Assembly: GCF_000717025.1 (NCBI RefSeq)
Contig: NZ_JNXG01000002.1
Coordinates: 496,001-560,000, forward strand
Direction of reading: 5' to 3'
Length of the DNA stretch: 64,000 bases
Source of the DNA: Streptomyces atroolivaceus
GTDB taxonomy: Bacteria; Actinomycetota; Actinomycetes; Streptomycetales; Streptomycetaceae
A program made the position numbers and the translations under genes. Below are positions 48,580 to 57,774 of this stretch, in pieces. Every line of letters starts with the position of its first letter. Position 1 is the first letter of the stretch. The notes beneath the pieces are model-generated. The model did no database searches. It saw nothing but the letters and a program-made list of their open reading frames with translations, and was not told where the DNA came from.

Positions 48580-48993
48580 ATGGGTGTGACCGGTCCGATC
48601 CGTGTGGTGGTGGCCAAGCCGGGCCTCGACGGCCATGACCGCGGGGCCAAGGTCATCGCGCGGGCGCTGCGGGACGCGGGCATGGAGGTCATCTACACGG
48701 GGCTCCACCAGACGCCCGAGCAGATCGTGGACACAGCGATCCAGGAGGACGCCGACGCCATCGGTCTCTCGATTCTCTCCGGTGCCCACAACACGCTCTT
48801 CTCCAAGGTCATCGAGCTGCTGAAGGAGCGCGAGGCGGAGGACATCAAGGTGTTCGGCGGCGGCATCATCCCCGAGGCGGACATCGCTCCGCTGAAGGAG
48901 CAGGGCGTCGCGGAGATCTTCACCCCGGGTGCCACGACGGCCTCGATCGTCGACTGGGTGAACGCGCACGTCCGACAGCCGGCGGAGGCCTGA
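48580..48993 (+). CDS. icmB: Isobutyryl-CoA mutase small (B12-binding) subunit
   Basis: The 137-aa cobalamin-binding subunit carries the base-off motif DGHDRGAK (DxHxxG), [11 protein letters not shown] with the conserved Ser-x-Leu, and [11 protein letters not shown] near the C-terminus. With a large subunit (IcmA) it interconverts isobutyryl-CoA and butyryl-CoA, supplying polyketide and fatty-acid starters. No large-subunit gene is adjacent, as for the separate icmB of S. coelicolor. It could also serve another B12 mutase subunit. ATG 48580 gives the usual length. Confidence 0.9.
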
Positions 48994-49301: not shown

Positions 49302-49345
49302 CTACTGCCTGCCACCTTCTGCCTCGTCGCTGCCCCTCCCCGTTG
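49269..49345. repeat. Degenerate CTGCC-type repeat across DUF5691 gene end
   Basis: Imperfect repeats of a CTGCCT/CTGCTG unit run through the stop codon of the DUF5691 gene at 49302. The encoded end of that protein is low-complexity. Confidence 0.5.
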
Positions 49346-50993
49346 CTGTTCCTGCCCCTCCCGGCCGGTCCTGGCGGTCCTGGGCCAGTTCCGCGTCCAT
49401 GGCGGCGCGCAGGCGCAGGGTGGACACCAGCCGCAGGAACGCCTCCGACCAGTAGCCGCCCGCGCCGGGTGAGGCGCCTTCCGGCTCGTCCGGCGTGGTG
49501 GTGAGCACCGCGAGCCGGTCCGCCTCGGCCGGGTTCAGGCAGCGCTCGGCGAGCCCCATCACCCCGCTGAAGCTCCAGGGGTAGCTCCCCGCGTCCCGGG
49601 CTATGTCCAGTGCGTCGACCACCGCCCTGCCGAGCGGCCCGTCCCAGGGCACGGAGCAGACGCCGAGCAGCTGGAAGGCCTCGGACAGGCCGTGCGCGGC
49701 TATGAAGCCGGCGACCCAGAGCGCACGCTCGGAGGGGGGCAGGGTGGCGAGGAGCTTCGACCGCTCGGCCAGCGACACCGTCCCCGGGCCGTTGGCCAGG
49801 GGGGTCGACGGGGCGCCGAGCAACGCCCGTGCCCAGCCGGGGTCCCGCTGCCGCACGGCGGCCCGGCACCAGGCGGCGTGGAGCTCCGCGTCCCAGCCGT
49901 CGGAGACCGGCAGCATCACCAACTCCTGCGCCGTCCGGCCGCCGAACTTCTCCCGCCAGACCCCGAGCGGGGTCGCCTCCACCAACTGGCCGAGCCACCA
50001 TGACCGTTCGCCTCGGCCCGAGGGGGGTACCGGCACCACTCCGTCGCGCTCCATGGCGGCGTCGCACTCGTGCGGCGCCTCCACGGCGATGGACACGTCA
50101 CCCCCCGTACGGTCGGGGTTCACGCAGGACGTGGCACGAGCCGCCATCCGTCGGGCGAGCGCAGAACCGGGCAGCGCGGACAGCAGCTCGGCTGCCGTGG
50201 AGCGGACGTTGCGGCTGCGGTCCGCGAGCGCCTCCTCCAGAAACGCTTCGTCGCTCCCGGAGAGCCCGGACCGGAGGGAGTCGACGAACATCAGCCGGTC
50301 CTCGGCCCGCTCCGTGGACCACGTGGCGGTGAGCAGCGACCTGGCCGCGTCGGGATCCTGCTCCCGCACCGCCCCGAGCAGCGCGACCCGCTCGGCGAAG
50401 AGCCCCTCCTCCCAGAGCCGGCGAACCGCCTCCGGATCCGATGTGTCCGGCCGGTGCGCACCGCGGTGCGAGGCCCGCAGCGCGAACCTCCACTCCGGAT
50501 TCAGCCCGGCCAGCCAGAGTCCGCGCGGTCCGGCGAACGCCAGCACGTGCGGACGCAGATCCGAGCGCGCTCGTGCCGCGTCCAGCAGGGCGGGCAGGAG
50601 CTCCGCCGGTGCCCGGTAGCCGCGTGCGTGGGCGGAGGCCAGCCACTGGGGGATGAGCTCGGTGAGATCGGGAGCCGCTCCCCGGCGCCCGCCACTGGGC
50701 GGAGCCGAGCGGTCGGCCAGCAGCTGGGCGAGCCGGCGGCGGGCGGCGGCCGGCAGCGGCGGCCGGGGATCCGCAGGCGCCGGCACGGGCAGGACGGCTC
50801 CTGTGGCCGGCCGCAGGGCCGCCCTGCGCCGCAGCGTGTGCACGGCGGCCGCGTCGAGCAGCGCCACCGGGCCGGCCGCGGTGCCGCCTGCCGCGCGGAG
50901 CGGACGCCGGTCGGTGCCGAGGAGTGCCGAGGTGACCAGGTCTTCCCATGGGGGGTTCACGGGTACGTCCGGCGTCGTGATGTCGGTGGGCAT
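49302..50993 (-). CDS. DUF5691 domain protein
   Basis: The 563-aa protein is mostly alpha-helical with HEAT-like character (WEDLVTSALLGTDRRPL at the start; EALADRSRNVRSTAAELLSALPGSALARRMA in the middle; CLNPAEADRLAVLTTT late). It matches the DUF5691 family as I recall it. No catalytic motif is visible; a scaffold or adaptor role is plausible. GGAAGGGA precedes the ATG. It is downstream of the SWIM protein gene (68-nt gap) and opposite the MoxR–DUF5682–VWA operon, with which it usually clusters. Confidence 0.82.
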   Translation of the reverse strand: MPTDITTPDVPVNPPWEDLVTSALLGTDRRPLRAAGGTAAGPVALLDAAAVHTLRRRAALRPATGAVLPVPAPADPRPPLPAAARRRLAQLLADRSAPPSGGRRGAAPDLTELIPQWLASAHARGYRAPAELLPALLDAARARSDLRPHVLAFAGPRGLWLAGLNPEWRFALRASHRGAHRPDTSDPEAVRRLWEEGLFAERVALLGAVREQDPDAARSLLTATWSTERAEDRLMFVDSLRSGLSGSDEAFLEEALADRSRNVRSTAAELLSALPGSALARRMAARATSCVNPDRTGGDVSIAVEAPHECDAAMERDGVVPVPPSGRGERSWWLGQLVEATPLGVWREKFGGRTAQELVMLPVSDGWDAELHAAWCRAAVRQRDPGWARALLGAPSTPLANGPGTVSLAERSKLLATLPPSERALWVAGFIAAHGLSEAFQLLGVCSVPWDGPLGRAVVDALDIARDAGSYPWSFSGVMGLAERCLNPAEADRLAVLTTTPDEPEGASPGAGGYWSEAFLRLVSTLRLRAAMDAELAQDRQDRPGGAGTATGRGSDEAEGGRQ

Positions 50994-51061
50994 CGGGTCC
51001 CTTCCGGTGGTCCGGGGACAGCGGGTCGCAGGCTTGCGGCGGTCGAGGAGGACGCGGTACG

Positions 51062-52456
51062 TCAGGCGAGGGCCACTGCCGCGCTCGCTCCGGCGTCGTC
51101 GGAGGTCTCGGGAGGCCAGGCCGCGAGCGGGTCGAAGCCCCGGTGCCCGCACTCGCCGAACACGGTCAGGGGGCCTCCGCCGGACAGTGCCACGAGCTTC
51201 CAGAGCCCTGGCCGGGACAGTGCGGAGGGCGCGATCGGAAGGGCGGAAGCGTCCGCCGCGCCGACCAGGCGCCAGCCGTCCCCGGACGGCGCGGGTATGA
51301 CATCGCTCAGCGTGACCGGCCACGCGTCGAGCCAGGGGTCGTCCCGAAGCGCCCGCCCGTACGCGGCGACGGCCTCGGCTGTCGTGCCGCCGGGCGGCGG
51401 TGCTGCCGTGACGACGGGCTCGCCGTACCGAGGTCCCAGCTCGGCCCGCAGCCCTCCGCCGCCCGAGAAGGGCGTCACCTCGGCGTCCACCACAGCGCCC
51501 ACCGGCAGTGCATGGGCGGGAGCTCGCCCCGGCGCACCGTAGGACAGCAGCAGGGCGGTGCGCGCCGACTCCGTGCCGTACAGCCAGATGCGGCGGGTGA
51601 CGATCCGGCCGTCAGGTACGTCGTACTGCGCGAGGACGAGCCAGCGATCGCGGACGGCCGGTCCTTCGGCCGAGGCCGTCAGTCCCACCCTCCTGCGGAC
51701 GGTCGCGGCCAGCGGGCCGGGCAGCCGGTCGCGCCCGAGCCAGCCCGAGTCCAGCAGATGCAGGAGCGCGCACTCCTCGAGCAACCGCGCCGGCCAGCCG
51801 GGTCCCGAAGCCGGAAGCGACCCCAGATCCCGCACCCGGTTGGCGAGCCCCGGCGCCTGGGCGTCGACCATGCGGGCCGCCGTTTCCTCCCACAGCCCGT
51901 ATCCCGGCCGGTCCACCTCCGCGAGTCCGCCGCGCAGCAGATCGGTGAGGCGCTGCTCCAGCTCCCGCGTGCCGCCCGTGATGCGCTCGGCCCTGCGGTC
52001 GGCGCGCCGGGCGGCCTCCCGGCTCGCGGGCCCTTCGGCCGCCGCCGGTCCTGGAGGTGCCTCGGCCGCCGCCCGGCCGCGTCGGTCCGCAGGCCGCCGC
52101 GCGGCCCAGGCGGGCGGCTCCTGGACCCGGCCGAGTACCCGCGCGTCGGAGGCGAGGAGCAGCAGGAGTCCCAGGACATGCCGGCAGGGGGATTCCTCCC
52201 GGCGGCAACTGCACCTGTAGTCAGGCACGTTCGTGTCGACCGTCGTGCGGTGCGGGGGACCGTCGCCGTCCGCGCACACCCCCCACGCGACACCCGGACC
52301 GCCGCGCCCCGCACCGGACCACACGCGCTCCGAACCGAGCGCGAGGCCCGCCGCACGTGACTTGTCGTCAGGAGCGAGCTCCAGCACCCACTCCGTCGTC
52401 TTGTGCTCCACCCGACCGGCGGAGCGCCAGGGTTCTCCCCCGTGAGACAGCACCAT
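51062..52456 (-). CDS. SWIM zinc-finger family protein
   Basis: The 464-aa protein has a SWIM zinc finger near residues 78–96 (YRCSCRREESPCRHVLGL, CxCx6CxH). SWIM modules bind DNA or proteins. The rest is uncharacterised, with a charged Ala/Arg-rich helical stretch after the finger and beta-rich C-terminal half. ATG 52456 is preceded by TACCGT seven bases upstream and no Shine-Dalgarno, so it looks leaderless; a TTG at 52486 is a weaker choice. It heads the minus-strand arm of the MoxR/VWA cluster. Confidence 0.87.
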   Translation of the reverse strand: MVLSHGGEPWRSAGRVEHKTTEWVLELAPDDKSRAAGLALGSERVWSGAGRGGPGVAWGVCADGDGPPHRTTVDTNVPDYRCSCRREESPCRHVLGLLLLLASDARVLGRVQEPPAWAARRPADRRGRAAAEAPPGPAAAEGPASREAARRADRRAERITGGTRELEQRLTDLLRGGLAEVDRPGYGLWEETAARMVDAQAPGLANRVRDLGSLPASGPGWPARLLEECALLHLLDSGWLGRDRLPGPLAATVRRRVGLTASAEGPAVRDRWLVLAQYDVPDGRIVTRRIWLYGTESARTALLLSYGAPGRAPAHALPVGAVVDAEVTPFSGGGGLRAELGPRYGEPVVTAAPPPGGTTAEAVAAYGRALRDDPWLDAWPVTLSDVIPAPSGDGWRLVGAADASALPIAPSALSRPGLWKLVALSGGGPLTVFGECGHRGFDPLAAWPPETSDDAGASAAVALA

Positions 52457-52463
52457 GGAACCG

Positions 52464-52469
52464 ACGGTA
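52464..52469 (-). promoter_or_regulatory. -10-like TACCGT, leaderless arrangement for SWIM gene
   Basis: TACCGT on the minus strand, 7 nt, then the ATG at 52456. Confidence 0.4.
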
Positions 52470-52584
52470 GGGCGTGCCACTGACAATCAGCCGCGACCTG
52501 CGATTCCGCCCGTTCCGCGCTGACTTGACCGTTTCGCTTCGGTGCGCTTCTCTGCGAAGAGGACAACGACATCGGGGGATTCGG

Positions 52585-53025
52585 ATGAACCGCACCACAC
52601 GCACCACCCGTATCGGGCGCACCACCCGTGCCGCGGTGGCGGGGCTGGCCGCCTGCGGCCTCGCGCTCGGCCTCGGCGCCTGCTCCGACGAAGCCGTCGA
52701 GGCCGTCGACAAGGTCACGGACGAGACCTACGAGGTGACCTACGAAGTCACCGGTACGAGCGCCGGCGAGATCCAGTTCCACGGTGGTGGCGGCAAGGCC
52801 CTGGAGCCCGAGACCGAGTCGGTCGAGTCGCCCGTGCTGCCGTGGAAGAAGACCGTCACGCTGCGCGGGATCATGCCGCCGGCGGTCATGCCGGTCCCAC
52901 CGGACGCGGGCGCGGCGGACCTCGCCTGCACCATCACCCACAAGGGCGAGGTCATCGCGGAGGCGAAGGGCGAGGAGCTCCTCACGAGCGGCGGATGCGT
53001 CGCGGTCTCGCCCGTCACAGGCTGA
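52585..53025 (+). CDS. MmpS-like lipoprotein
   Basis: The 146-aa precursor has a Tat/Sec-like basic start, hydrophobic core and lipobox LGAC (Cys about residue 33), so it should be a membrane-attached lipoprotein. The mature part (YEVTYEVTGTSAGEIQFHGG … LPWKKTVTLRG … LACTITHKGEVIAEAKG) resembles MmpS accessory proteins of mycobacterial MmpL transporters. No MmpL gene is nearby. GGGGGA lies upstream. It precedes the MoxR operon by 107 nt and may or may not belong to it. Confidence 0.85.
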   Translation: MNRTTRTTRIGRTTRAAVAGLAACGLALGLGACSDEAVEAVDKVTDETYEVTYEVTGTSAGEIQFHGGGGKALEPETESVESPVLPWKKTVTLRGIMPPAVMPVPPDAGAADLACTITHKGEVIAEAKGEELLTSGGCVAVSPVTG

Positions 53026-53132
53026 TCCTCCGCCTGGTCCCCGATCGGTCCCGGGCCCGTGCCGGGACCGATTGTCAGTGCCGTGGTGCACGGTGGAAAC
53101 CGCATCGGATCGACCGATCCGGAGGGGGATTC

Positions 53133-54245
53133 ATGACCGTGTCCGTACAGACCGACGCCGCTGGCGGCGAAGCCCTGAGGCCGCACGCCGAGCATGCCTT
53201 CGCCGACGAGCTCAAGGCGCTCGCCGCCGCTGACGACCGCCCCAGGCCCGCCCGTTGGAAGCTCTCGCCCTGGGCCGTCTCCACCTATCTGCTCGGCGGG
53301 ACGCTTCCGGACGGCACACTGATCACACCGAAGTACGTGGGCCCGCGCCGCCTCGTCGAGGTCGCCGTGACCACGCTCGCCACCGATCGGGCCCTGCTGC
53401 TCCTCGGCGTTCCGGGGACCGCCAAGACCTGGGTGTCCGAACACCTCGCCGCAGCCGTCAGCGGGGACTCGACCCTGCTCGTCCAGGGAACCGCGGGCAC
53501 CCCCGAGGAAGCCGTCCGCTACGGGTGGAACTACGCGCAGTTGCTGGCCCAAGGGCCCAGCCGTGAGGCGCTGGTGCCGAGCCCGGTCATGCGGGCCATG
53601 GCCGAGGGCATGACCGCACGCGTGGAGGAGCTCACCCGCATCCCCGCCGACGTGCAGGACGCGCTCATCACGATCCTTTCGGAGAAGACACTTCCCGTTC
53701 CCGAGCTGGGCCAGGAGGTCCAGGCGGTCCGGGGGTTCAATCTCGTCGCCACGGCGAACGACCGCGACCGCGGGGTCAACGAGCTCTCCAGCGCGCTGCG
53801 CCGCCGGTTCAACACCGTCGTGCTGCCGCTGCCCGCGACACCTGAGGCCGAGGTGGACATCGTCTCCCGGCGCGTCGCCCAGATCGGGCGCTCGCTCGAC
53901 CTGCCCCCGGCGCCCGACGGGATGACCGAGATCCGGCGCGTCGTCACGGTCTTCCGCGAACTGCGCGACGGCATCACCACGGACGGCCGGACCAAGCTCA
54001 AGTCGCCGTCGGGGACACTGTCCACGGCCGAGGCCATCTCCGTCGTCACCGGAGGCCTCGCGCTCGCCGCCCACTTCGGCGACGGTGTCCTGCGCCCGGG
54101 TGACGTGGCAGCGGGAATACGCGGGGCCGTCGTCCGCGATCCCACGGCCGACCGCGTGGTCTGGCAGGAGTACGTGGAGACCGTCGTCCGGGAGCGGGAC
54201 GGCTGGAAGGACTTCTACCGCGCCTGCCGCGAGGCCGCCGAATGA
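53133..54245 (+). CDS. MoxR-family AAA+ ATPase
   Basis: The 370-aa AAA+ ATPase has Walker A GVPGTAKTW (about residues 91–99), a Walker B position reading ARVEELTRIP (Glu where Asp is usual), sensor 1 LVATANDRDRG, and an Arg finger in SSALRRRFN. MoxR ATPases act as chaperones with VWA proteins to activate or insert metal into partners. GGAGGGGGAT precedes the ATG. Its stop overlaps the DUF5682 start as ATGA, making a three-gene translationally coupled set. Confidence 0.92.
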   Translation: MTVSVQTDAAGGEALRPHAEHAFADELKALAAADDRPRPARWKLSPWAVSTYLLGGTLPDGTLITPKYVGPRRLVEVAVTTLATDRALLLLGVPGTAKTWVSEHLAAAVSGDSTLLVQGTAGTPEEAVRYGWNYAQLLAQGPSREALVPSPVMRAMAEGMTARVEELTRIPADVQDALITILSEKTLPVPELGQEVQAVRGFNLVATANDRDRGVNELSSALRRRFNTVVLPLPATPEAEVDIVSRRVAQIGRSLDLPPAPDGMTEIRRVVTVFRELRDGITTDGRTKLKSPSGTLSTAEAISVVTGGLALAAHFGDGVLRPGDVAAGIRGAVVRDPTADRVVWQEYVETVVRERDGWKDFYRACREAAE

Positions 54246-56557
54246 CACCCCGCGCCGGAGGGGCCACCGCCCCAGGGGGGCCGCTGCTGCTGGGGGTTCG
54301 CCATCACGGTCCCGGCTCCGCCCGTGCGGTCCTGGCAGCCCTGGAATCCGTACGGCCGGGTGCCGTGCTCGTCGAGGGACCACCCGAGGGCGACGCGCTG
54401 CTGCCGCTCGCCGCGCACAGCCGGATGCGTCCCCCCGTCGCGCTGCTGGCGCACGCCGTGGACGACCCGGGACGTGCCGCGTTCTGGCCGATGGCGGACT
54501 TCTCGCCCGAGTGGGTGGCGATCCGCTGGGCATCGGCGCACGGGGTCCCCGTGCGTTTCGTGGACCTGCCCGCCGCGCACTCCCTGGCGCTGACGGAACA
54601 GCGGGAGGGCGGGCCGGGGGAGGGCCGGGGGATGGATCCGATCGGAATCCTCGCCGGGACCGCCGGCTACGACGACCCCGAGCGCTGGTGGGAGGACGTC
54701 GTCGAGCACCGCGCGACGGGCGGGCAGCCCGCCGACCCGTGCGCCCCGTTCGCCGCGCTCGCCGAGGCGATGACGGCGCTGCGGGAGGCCTACGGGGACG
54801 GGGGACATCCGCAGGACGCCGTCCGGGAGGCCTGCATGCGCCTTCAGCTGCGCGCCGCCCGGAAGGAGTTCGGCGACGACATCGCCGTGGTCTGCGGCGC
54901 GTGGCACGTTCCCGCCCTCACGGCGAGGACGACCGTCGCCGCCGACCGGGCGCTCCTCAAGGGGATGCCCAAGGTGAAGACGGAGCTGACCTGGGTGCCC
55001 TGGACCCATCGCAGGCTCGCCCGGTACAGCGGATACGGCGCGGGGATCGAGTCACCCGGCTGGTACGGGCACCTGTTCGCCGCCCCGGACCGGCCCGTCG
55101 AGCGCTGGATGACGAAGGTGGCCGGACTCCTGCGCGACACGGACAGGACCGTGTCCTCCGCGGACGTCATCGAGGCCGTCCGCCTGGCCGGGACCCTGGC
55201 AGCCCTGCGAGGCCGCCCGGCCGTGGGCCTGGACGAAGCCACCGACGCCGTCAGGGCCGTCATGTGCGAGGGATCCGATGTGCCACTCGCCCTCGTACGG
55301 GACCGGCTCGTCGTCGGCGAGATCCTCGGGGAGGTCCCGGACACCGCCCCGGCCGTCCCCCTCCAGCGCGACCTGGACAGGCAGCAGCGCACACTGAGGC
55401 TCAGGCCCGAGGCGGAGAAGCGCGAGCTGGAGCTCGATCTCCGCAAGGACACCGACGCGGCCCGCAGCAGACTGCTGCACCGGCTGCGGCTCATCGGGGT
55501 GCACTGGGGCGAACCCGCCGCGGGCCGGGGCAGCACGGGGACGTTCCGGGAGGCCTGGCGGCTGCACTGGGATCCCGAACTCTTCGTGCGGATCGCCGAG
55601 GCCGGGGTGTGGGGCACCACGGTGCTGGGCGCCGCGACCGCCAGGGCCGAGGCGGACGCCGTGTCGGCGTCCTCGCTCGCCGGGGTCACCGCGCTCGCAG
55701 AGCAGTGCCTCCTGGCCGGCCTGACCGAGGCTCTGCCCGTCGTGATGAGGGCCCTCGCCGACCGGGCCGCCCTCGACGCGGATGCCGGCCACCTCGCCGA
55801 CGCACTGCCCGCCCTCGCCCGCTCCCTGCGGTACGGGGACGTACGGGCCACGGACACCACGGCTCTGGGAGAGGTGGCCGTCGGCCTGGCCGAGCGCGTC
55901 TGCGTGGGCCTGCCGCCCGCCTGCACCGGCCTCGACGCGGACGCGGCCGAGGAGGCGCGGCGACGGATGGACGGCGTGCACATCGCGATCGGGCTGCTCG
56001 CCACCACCGTACGGGCGGAAGGGCTGCCCGAGCGGTGGGCGGGCGTCCTGCACAAGCTGTCCGCCAGGGACGCGGTCTCCGGTGTGATCCGGGGCCGTGC
56101 CACGCGCCTGCTCCTGGACGACGGGCGGCTGGCCGGGAGCGAGACCGCGCGCCTGATGGGGCTGGCCCTCTCGCCCGCCGCCGCACCGGCCGAAGCGGCG
56201 GCGTGGATCGAGGGGTTCGTCGGCGGAGCGTCGGGCGGCGGTCTGCTGCTCGTCCACGACGAGCGGCTCCTCGGCCTCGTCGACACCTGGCTGACGGGCG
56301 TACCGGCCGACACCTTCGCCGACGTACTGCCCCTGGTGCGCCGCACCTTCTCCGCCTACGAGCCGGGTGTGCGGCGCACGCTGGGTGAGCTCGTCCGCCG
56401 GGGGACGGGCCCCGGGAGGGCGGCGCGCGACGAGGGCGTGGCCCCCGCGCCGGGCTTCGGCGAAGGACTCGATGAGGAGCGGGCGGACGCGGTGGTGCCG
56501 GTGGTGCGGCTGCTGCTCGGCCTCGACACCCCGGCGGAGCGGGCGGTGAGGGGATGA
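54242..56557 (+). CDS. DUF5682 family protein
   Basis: A 771-aa protein of unknown function. The N-terminus has LLLGVRHHGPGSARAVLAAL and AVLVEGPPEGDALLPL, a Gly-x-x-His-His plus Glu pattern that recalls the TraB/TIKI/GumN metal-dependent family (inference from motif layout only). The middle holds ERWWEDVVEHR and VVCGAWHVPAL, with a second His. The C-terminal half is helical. It overlaps both neighbours by 4 nt (ATGA), so it should be made in fixed ratio with the MoxR ATPase and the VWA protein. Confidence 0.85.
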   Translation: MTPRAGGATAPGGPLLLGVRHHGPGSARAVLAALESVRPGAVLVEGPPEGDALLPLAAHSRMRPPVALLAHAVDDPGRAAFWPMADFSPEWVAIRWASAHGVPVRFVDLPAAHSLALTEQREGGPGEGRGMDPIGILAGTAGYDDPERWWEDVVEHRATGGQPADPCAPFAALAEAMTALREAYGDGGHPQDAVREACMRLQLRAARKEFGDDIAVVCGAWHVPALTARTTVAADRALLKGMPKVKTELTWVPWTHRRLARYSGYGAGIESPGWYGHLFAAPDRPVERWMTKVAGLLRDTDRTVSSADVIEAVRLAGTLAALRGRPAVGLDEATDAVRAVMCEGSDVPLALVRDRLVVGEILGEVPDTAPAVPLQRDLDRQQRTLRLRPEAEKRELELDLRKDTDAARSRLLHRLRLIGVHWGEPAAGRGSTGTFREAWRLHWDPELFVRIAEAGVWGTTVLGAATARAEADAVSASSLAGVTALAEQCLLAGLTEALPVVMRALADRAALDADAGHLADALPALARSLRYGDVRATDTTALGEVAVGLAERVCVGLPPACTGLDADAAEEARRRMDGVHIAIGLLATTVRAEGLPERWAGVLHKLSARDAVSGVIRGRATRLLLDDGRLAGSETARLMGLALSPAAAPAEAAAWIEGFVGGASGGGLLLVHDERLLGLVDTWLTGVPADTFADVLPLVRRTFSAYEPGVRRTLGELVRRGTGPGRAARDEGVAPAPGFGEGLDEERADAVVPVVRLLLGLDTPAERAVRG

Positions 56558-57774
56558 CCACGGACCGGGCGCGCCCGGAGGAGGAGAGGGCGATGGACAC
56601 GGCTCCCGCAGAGGACGAGCGGCTGCGGCGTTGGCGCATGGTGCTCGGCGCGGACAGCGCCGAGAGCACGGGACGCGCGCTCACCGGACGCGACGCGGCG
56701 ATGGACGGGGCCCTGACCGCTCTGTACGACGGCGGGAGGAAGCCGGGCGGCCGGGGCGGAGCCGAGCGTTCCGCGGGGCTCGGGGCATCCGCCCCGTCGG
56801 TGGCCCGCTGGCTCGGCGACATCCGCACGTACTTCCCGGCCTCCGTCGTCCAGGTCATGCAGCGCGACGCGATCGACCGCCTCGGGCTCTCCGCCCTGCT
56901 GCTGGAGCCGGAGATGCTGGAGGCCGTGGAACCCGACGTCCATCTGGTCGGCACCCTGCTCTCGCTCGGCAAGGCGATGCCGGAGACGACGAAGGAGACG
57001 GCCCGGGCCGTCGTACGCAAGGTCGTCGACGACCTGGAGCGCCGGCTGGCCACCCGCACCAGGGCGACGCTCACCGGCGCCCTCGACCGCTCGGCCAGAT
57101 CGGCCCGGCCGCGCCACCGCGACATCGACTGGGACCGCACGGTCCGGGCCAACCTCAGGAACTACGTGCCCCTTCCCGGCCGTGAAGGGGCCGGGACGGT
57201 GATACCCGAGCGTCTCGTCGGGTACGGGCGGGCGGCCCGGTCCGTGAAGAAGGACGTCATCCTCTGTGTCGACCAGTCGGGGTCCATGGCGGCCTCCGTC
57301 GTCCACGCCTCGGTCTTCGGCGCGGTGCTCGCATCGATGCGGACCCTGGCGACCCGGCTCGTGGTGTTCGACACGGCTGTCGTCGACCTCACCGACCAGC
57401 TCGACGATCCGGTCGACGTCCTGTTCGGCACGCAGCTCGGCGGCGGTACGGACATCAACCGCGCGCTCGCCTACTGCCAGTCGAGGATCACCCGCCCGGC
57501 GGACACCGTCGTCGTCCTCATCAGCGATCTCCACGAGGGAGGGATCCGCGAGGAGATGATGCGACGGGCCGCCGCGATGAAGGCGTCCGGCGTGCAGTTC
57601 GTGACGCTGCTCGCCCTCTCCGACGAGGGCACACCCTCCTACGACCGGGACCACGCAGCCGCGCTGGGGGCGCTCGGCGCCCCTGCCTTCGCCTGCACTC
57701 CGGACCTCTTCCCCGAGGTCATGGCGGCGGCGATCGAGAAACGGCCTCTGCCGGTACCGGACACGGGCCGGTGA
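56554..57774 (+). CDS. VWA domain protein
   Basis: The 406-aa protein has a helical N-terminal half and a C-terminal von Willebrand A domain. Its MIDAS is complete: DVILCVDQSGSM (DxSxS, about residue 235), GGGTDINRAL (Thr) and VVLISDLHEGG (Asp). VWA proteins of this kind partner MoxR ATPases and present clients or regulators. The ATG overlaps the DUF5682 stop. It ends the plus-strand arm of the cluster; a small CGGACC/GGTCCG hairpin follows at 57780–57793. Confidence 0.92.
   Translation: MTTDRARPEEERAMDTAPAEDERLRRWRMVLGADSAESTGRALTGRDAAMDGALTALYDGGRKPGGRGGAERSAGLGASAPSVARWLGDIRTYFPASVVQVMQRDAIDRLGLSALLLEPEMLEAVEPDVHLVGTLLSLGKAMPETTKETARAVVRKVVDDLERRLATRTRATLTGALDRSARSARPRHRDIDWDRTVRANLRNYVPLPGREGAGTVIPERLVGYGRAARSVKKDVILCVDQSGSMAASVVHASVFGAVLASMRTLATRLVVFDTAVVDLTDQLDDPVDVLFGTQLGGGTDINRALAYCQSRITRPADTVVVLISDLHEGGIREEMMRRAAAMKASGVQFVTLLALSDEGTPSYDRDHAAALGALGAPAFACTPDLFPEVMAAAIEKRPLPVPDTGR

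Follow-up and report, generated by a model that had tools for sequence, protein, structure and literature searches.

Two MoxR ATPases occur in Escherichia coli K-12, and YehL forms a MoxR subfamily of its own, one of seven (PMC3893208). No function of YehL was found in the literature searched, among the matches listed. A genome-reduced E. coli is without the entire yeh region (PMC10652928), so the region is dispensable under laboratory conditions. The K-12 genes yehL-yehM-yehP-yehQ are the closest described relative of the five-gene cluster of Streptomyces atroolivaceus that is considered here. It occupies positions 49302..57774 of a 64,000-nucleotide stretch (contig NZ_JNXG01000002.1, positions 496,001 to 560,000 of the forward strand), and this whole stretch is called the window below. 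The cluster encodes a MoxR AAA+ ATPase, a DUF5682 (YehM family) protein and a VWA protein and, on the opposite strand, a SWIM zinc-finger protein and a DUF5691 protein. These proteins already carry annotations as domains of unknown function (DUFs), and their relatives in E. coli have been known for a long time. The DUF5682 protein is predicted to carry a TIKI-fold domain with invariant, active-site-like residues and may be an enzyme under the control of the MoxR–VWA pair.

The core trio has the same order in both organisms. The window MoxR protein (370 amino acids, 53133..54245, plus strand; AAA_5/MoxR Pfam score 126.9 bits) aligns to YehL nearly over the full length with 39% identity in 356 columns (224 bits), whereas RavA, the only other subfamily compared, gave 22.3 bits and no meaningful match. 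DUF5682 (771 amino acids, 54242..56557, plus strand; PF18934, 960.9 bits) corresponds to YehM, which belongs to the same Pfam family (330.8 bits) and shares 29% identity in 517 columns. Among its named relatives, the window protein matches best those from Streptomyces, at about 90% identity. The third product, a CoxE-like and YehP-like VWA protein (406 amino acids, 56554..57774, plus strand; VWA_CoxE, 200.1 bits), shares 37% identity with YehP and matches ViaA weakly (28.9 bits). RavA-ViaA is likewise a pair of a MoxR and a VWA protein, but no DUF5682 gene adjoins it. YehM- and YehP-like genes stood beside MoxR in all of the 30 loci compared, a neighbourhood which we take to be the defining trait of the YehL subfamily. 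A SWIM protein is also common to both operons, since YehQ contains the motif according to Pfam. However, E. coli has DUF4132 (yehI) in the place of DUF5691, and YehQ is of another SWIM type: alignment and profile comparison detected no similarity between YehQ and the window protein past the short Cys/His motif. Profile comparison also detected no relation between DUF5691 and DUF4132, and a kinship of these two families, or of the two SWIM types outside the motif, was rejected.

All 30 loci retain the Walker A motif and the sensor-1 asparagine of MoxR, and 29 retain the metal ion-dependent adhesion site (MIDAS) of the VWA protein, DxSGSM (DQSGSM in the window), the exception being a broken gene of Methylosinus. 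Regular expressions found a Walker B motif in 15, an arginine finger in 11 and a second VWA pattern (GGGT) in 28 of these loci; the shortfall of the first two we tentatively take to reflect poor patterns rather than lost motifs. An earlier interpretation of the window, made from its letters only and called the sequence-only reading here, had proposed a chaperone-like MoxR–VWA machine. The kinship to YehL and the kept Walker A and MIDAS motifs speak in part for this element of it; a real match to RavA is missing.

DUF5682 itself consists of two predicted parts. A fold search with the full-length AlphaFold2 model returned helical-repeat proteins as best matches, and because these dominated the search the N-terminal domain (residues 12-253; 54275..55000, plus strand) was folded alone. 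This model reached a mean predicted local distance difference test (pLDDT) of 83.5 and a predicted template modelling score (pTM) of 0.83, and its structural matches included ChaN, HopBA1, EreC and TraB, all of the TIKI superfamily. On the strength of the model the domain very probably has the TIKI fold, with a parallel beta-sheet core as in ChaN, Ere and HopBA1. As to the fold, comparison of the prediction with TraB, TIKI and ChaN structures agrees with the sequence-only reading, which had considered a TraB/TIKI-like metal site in DUF5682. The best structural match of all was a mitochondrial complex IV subunit of Tetrahymena (PDB 7w5z chain E; 8b6h and 8bqs chain DQ). The helices of the model outline an alpha-solenoid-like C-terminal region (about residues 373-760; 55358..56521, plus strand), and this fusion sets DUF5682 apart from the TIKI superfamily (Tiki/TraB, Ere, ChaN, HopBA1, RRSP). 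The relation is distant at the sequence level as well. No match to Pfam PF01963 (TraB_PrgY_gumN) was obtained for eight members at expectation values (E) up to 10 with the HMMER filters on, and a search of solved structures by sequence gave none for DUF5682. A profile of the N-domain aligned to the TraB protein YbaP along its length with the motifs in register, at a weak score.

The motifs GVRHHGPGS (residues 18-26), VEGP (44-47) and CGAWHVP (218-224), pointed out before, are present. Eleven residues are kept in all 30 loci: H21, E45, E90, D108, E155, R181, R195, E196, M199, G219 and H222; H22 is lost in two. Invariant columns are concentrated in the N-domain (19 of 242 versus 6 of 518 elsewhere, p = 5e-6), and H21, E45, R195 and H222 persist in relatives down to 23% identity. 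In EreC, E47, H50, E78, R261 and H289 have been discussed as catalytic, as have E3900, H3902, E3930 and H4030 together with the basic R4001 in RRSP (PMC6254334). The four DUF5682 residues match this set by order and similar spacing, not by distances in the model: a GxxH, a Glu, an Arg and a final GxxH follow each other as in the superfamily. The Glu two to three residues before the first His, typical of the 2His/2Glu class of Ere and RRSP, is missing in DUF5682 (G18-V19-R20-H21), as it is in YbaP (GSIH). RRSP is described as metal-independent and Tiki as metal-dependent (PMC6254334) and the Ere enzymes as metal-independent (PMC7979712), so DUF5682 may or may not bind a metal. Taken with the predicted fold, these residues make it rather probable that DUF5682 is catalytic.

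The linkage of the five families was followed in several samples. When one genome per species was scanned, at least 570 DUF5682 relatives were confirmed. The best 80 were kept, all from Streptomycetaceae, of which we take Actinacidiphila, Streptantibioticus and Wenjunlia to be members; the 62 with full flanks were counted and 18 with shorter flanks left out. All five genes were present in 62 of 62 loci, with the SWIM-DUF5691 arm oppositely oriented in each. Both the two-armed layout and the co-occurrence of the families, as the sequence-only reading had it, are therefore general within Streptomycetaceae; Pfam likewise agrees with its five family assignments and their positions. In one of the 63 loci (the window and these 62), that of Wenjunlia vitaminophila (L091), about 6.5 kb separate MoxR from the SWIM arm, the sole gap of this kind. 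Among 149 genomes of the phylum, DUF5682 occurred in ten and DUF5691 above the cut-off in nine, all nine among those ten and with the two genes at most about 6 kb apart. The tenth (G124) contains DUF4132 instead of DUF5691, and a sub-threshold DUF5691 match of 21.7 bits came from one genome without DUF5682 (G049). In the 95 Streptomyces genomes listing both families they share a contig in 91, with 3.3-6.1 kb between match starts, and lie on separate contigs in four. The co-occurrence far exceeds chance.

Farther away the set recurs in other arrangements. Deinococcus taeanensis and Rhizobium have all five genes in a single direction, and in Hymenobacter, where the set is also found, one frame holds SWIM together with DUF5691. 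In the plasmid collection 36 records have a match; 13 of these and a single phage-collection record were examined. In all 13 loci outside Streptomycetaceae with the SWIM type of the window the detected genes are unidirectional (the DUF5691 genes of L029-L031 were positioned through the phylum-wide genome search), which suggests that the two-armed arrangement arose by an inversion in the lineage of the Streptomycetaceae. In the plasmid copy of Methylosinus the broken VWA gene (L116, 11145-12370) is split over three frames. The annotation of one Hymenobacter plasmid breaks DUF5682 (L128, 8971-11263) into three overlapping pieces; the gene is whole in another plasmid that closely resembles this one.

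The minus-strand arm consists, from the centre outward, of SWIM and DUF5691, as the plus strand consists of MoxR, DUF5682 and VWA. The SWIM protein of about 464 amino acids (51062..52456, minus strand; alternative starts 52480/52486) matches the Pfam SWIM model with 21.8 bits (cut-off 19.6). Its motif region, CSCRREESPCRH, lies at 52157..52240 on the minus strand (residues 83-110 of the open reading frame 51062-52486), and all 17 loci with a SWIM protein of this type retain CxC..CxH. The DUF5691 protein (563 amino acids, 49302..50993, minus strand; PF18944, 584.8 bits) is suspected from its sequence to be helical with HEAT-like repeats; one of four relatives gave a weak HEAT match (E 0.046), and a search of solved structures by sequence returned chance-level rows only. 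With hidden Markov models built for this analysis the 30 loci were divided into 17 with the window SWIM type, 6 with the YehQ type and DUF4132, and 7 with neither; in one of the latter (L121), however, there is a DUF4132 gene along with a weak match to SWIM. The two types were never mixed in the 23 loci with a SWIM match. One Streptomyces genome (G128) contains a window-type and a DUF4132-type locus. DUF5691 was found in 13 of the 17 window-type loci by its own profile and, in part, in three more by the Pfam model; in the Fusobacterium locus SWIM is present and DUF5691 was not detected.

All 30 loci have DUF5682 next to MoxR and VWA, and trees of DUF5682 and MoxR from these loci divide largely by arm type. 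Mapped onto the trees, the three labels take 3 changes for DUF5682 (mean of shuffled labels 11.6) and 4 for MoxR (11.7), values to be read with the long branches, the uneven residue make-up and near-copies that inflate the clustering in mind. In the DUF5682 tree 16 of 17 window-type rows from four phyla form a single group (100/99), and Fusobacterium falls outside this 16-row group in both trees. The DUF4132 type takes two changes in the MoxR tree, because the type with fused DUF5682-VWA falls beside it, where long branches meet. Single frames with DUF5682 and VWA, or with SWIM and DUF5691, suggest that the machine is built from two corresponding sub-modules.

From these observations a mechanism can be outlined in which a chaperone of the YehL-type MoxR and VWA proteins would load and gate DUF5682 as a TIKI-fold hydrolase; it is put forward tentatively as the likeliest reading, as something close to, if not quite, an even call. 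DUF5682 would be the dedicated third core subunit, whose alpha-solenoid bears a TIKI hydrolase-like N-domain. Loading, holding or switching this subunit at the expense of ATP would fall to the MoxR ring and the VWA MIDAS, and SWIM and DUF5691, as a second, physically joined sub-module, would bring in or recognise the substrate. The output may be an ATP-gated cleavage or processing of a cellular target at a peptide or ester bond, presumably for housekeeping or under stress and not for phage defence. With more reserve, a whole class of such machines can be envisaged, in which a MoxR–VWA motor would have a protease- or esterase-like subunit of its own as a permanent partner and be equipped with exchangeable substrate-recognition modules (SWIM-DUF5691 or SWIM-DUF4132). 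The class would extend over at least four phyla, occur almost throughout Streptomyces and E. coli, and act as a regulated processing enzyme rather than an assembly chaperone. If YehM/DUF5682 is a TIKI-fold hydrolase under MoxR–VWA control, a core operon of E. coli would gain a testable biochemical activity with named residues, and an example of a MoxR machine carrying its own enzyme would be at hand. In the literature searched, which leaves subscription journals largely outside, the terms DUF5682 and DUF5691 were absent, MoxR and vWA were not mentioned together with 'SWIM domain' nor DUF4132 with MoxR, and neither a connection between YehM/DUF5682 and the TIKI fold nor the SWIM-DUF5691 version of the operon was found among the matches listed.

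Alternatively, the cluster could encode a chaperone for cofactor or metal insertion, like CoxD-CoxE or cobaltochelatase subunits, in which the TIKI domain would bind a metal, heme or tetrapyrrole as in ChaN and MoxR–VWA would insert it into a client enzyme. The setting in Streptomycetaceae bears on this idea. In the 10-kb flanks of the 62 loci a small B12-binding protein was matched in 61 (48580-48993, plus strand, a stand-alone domain in the window, presumably resembling a mutase small subunit), a UvrD-type helicase in 60, and an ATP-grasp and a coenzyme A-ligase subunit, similar to succinyl-CoA ligase, in 60 and 59. The cluster sits at a conserved place with both flanks conserved, so the B12-binding neighbour belongs to a broadly conserved block of this family. 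The gene tables for the loci of Hymenobacter, Deinococcus, Methylosinus and Rhizobium, which are incomplete, name no B12-binding gene within about 9 kb and show no recurring client enzyme, and a link of the cluster to B12 was rejected. Furthermore, the His-Glu-Arg-His arrangement fits the catalytic set of a hydrolase. A role in cofactor insertion seems rather unlikely.

The missing second Glu of EreC and RRSP could also mean that DUF5682 is a pseudoenzyme, its TIKI domain being a binding module and the machine purely an assembly chaperone. TIKI-fold proteins without the catalytic set exist, PMT for instance (PMC6254334), but the invariance of H21, E45, R195 and H222 is what catalysis would give, which leaves the pseudoenzyme improbable.

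Finally, the sequence-only reading had suggested a regulated effector system of the conflict type with DUF5682 as the effector. MoxR-vWA ternary conflict systems, composed like the present trio of MoxR, VWA and a third component, have been described (PMC7159879), some TIKI-fold proteins are toxin effector domains, and one plasmid copy, from Iodobacter, adjoins restriction-modification genes. The distribution is however core and not patchy in the genomes examined: DUF5682 was found in 97 and DUF5691 in 98 of 101 Streptomyces genomes (96 and 95 of the 98 with a completeness of at least 90% and a contamination of no more than 5%), and of 5426 E. coli genomes 5301 match the yehL-yehQ stretch, 5162 of them over at least 80% of its length. 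SWIM, Yeh and DUF5682 are absent from the main text of PMC7159879, and among the families that a Pfam scan listed for the five proteins of the cluster neither VMAP nor iSTAND appears. The bpMoxR model remained under its cut-off (20.9 versus 27 bits), and in PADLOC at E up to 0.1 the sole matches were IetA models on MoxR (E 0.025 and 0.087). One peptide pattern, run once against viral contigs, gave five matches, none of them a relative. The only match in the phage collection, a MoxR-DUF5682-VWA locus (L122), stems from an unverified contig labelled Bacteriophage sp. (MT835988.1), which looks bacterial in origin from its genes. That contig also encodes an MgsA-type ATPase, a polysaccharide deacetylase, DUF5717 and DUF5716. 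Given the near-universal presence and the conserved place, a toxic effector within a defence system is very unlikely.

As for minor features of the window, the plus-strand genes are joined by four-base ATGA overlaps at 54242..54245 (MoxR/DUF5682) and 56554..56557 (DUF5682/VWA), both of which had been noted before and are found in the sequence. In the 63 Streptomycetaceae loci the first junction is ATGA in 34, GTGA in 8 and TTGA in 1, the second in 32, 5 and 2, respectively; the remaining loci have gaps or other overlaps under the simple rule used. Two genes probably start inside longer, mechanically derived open reading frames: MoxR with the ATG at 53133 after GGAGGGGG, and DUF5691 with the ATG at 50993 after GGAAGG, a start placed by this ribosome-binding site. 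Between the arms lies a small lipoprotein-like gene (146 amino acids, 52585..53025, plus strand; sub-threshold MmpS-like PF05423 match of 16.9 bits, cut-off 21). It occurs in 8 of the 63 loci, the window and seven others, and is probably a passenger outside the machine.

The genome of S. atroolivaceus has two further DUF5682 copies away from the window. One belongs to a paralogous locus that encodes MoxR and a fusion of DUF5682 to VWA (L022, 7516-12591, on C12 of this genome), represented also by L024, L026 and L121; in L022 it is preceded by an open reading frame of 2013 amino acids without a Pfam match. The third copy (L023, on C9 of this genome, and L025) is very divergent and has a long VWA protein. 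Its DUF5682 was assigned no family by hmmscan, yet reached 105.4 bits with the same Pfam model in the genome search, and this C9-type copy retains H21, E45, R195 and H222.

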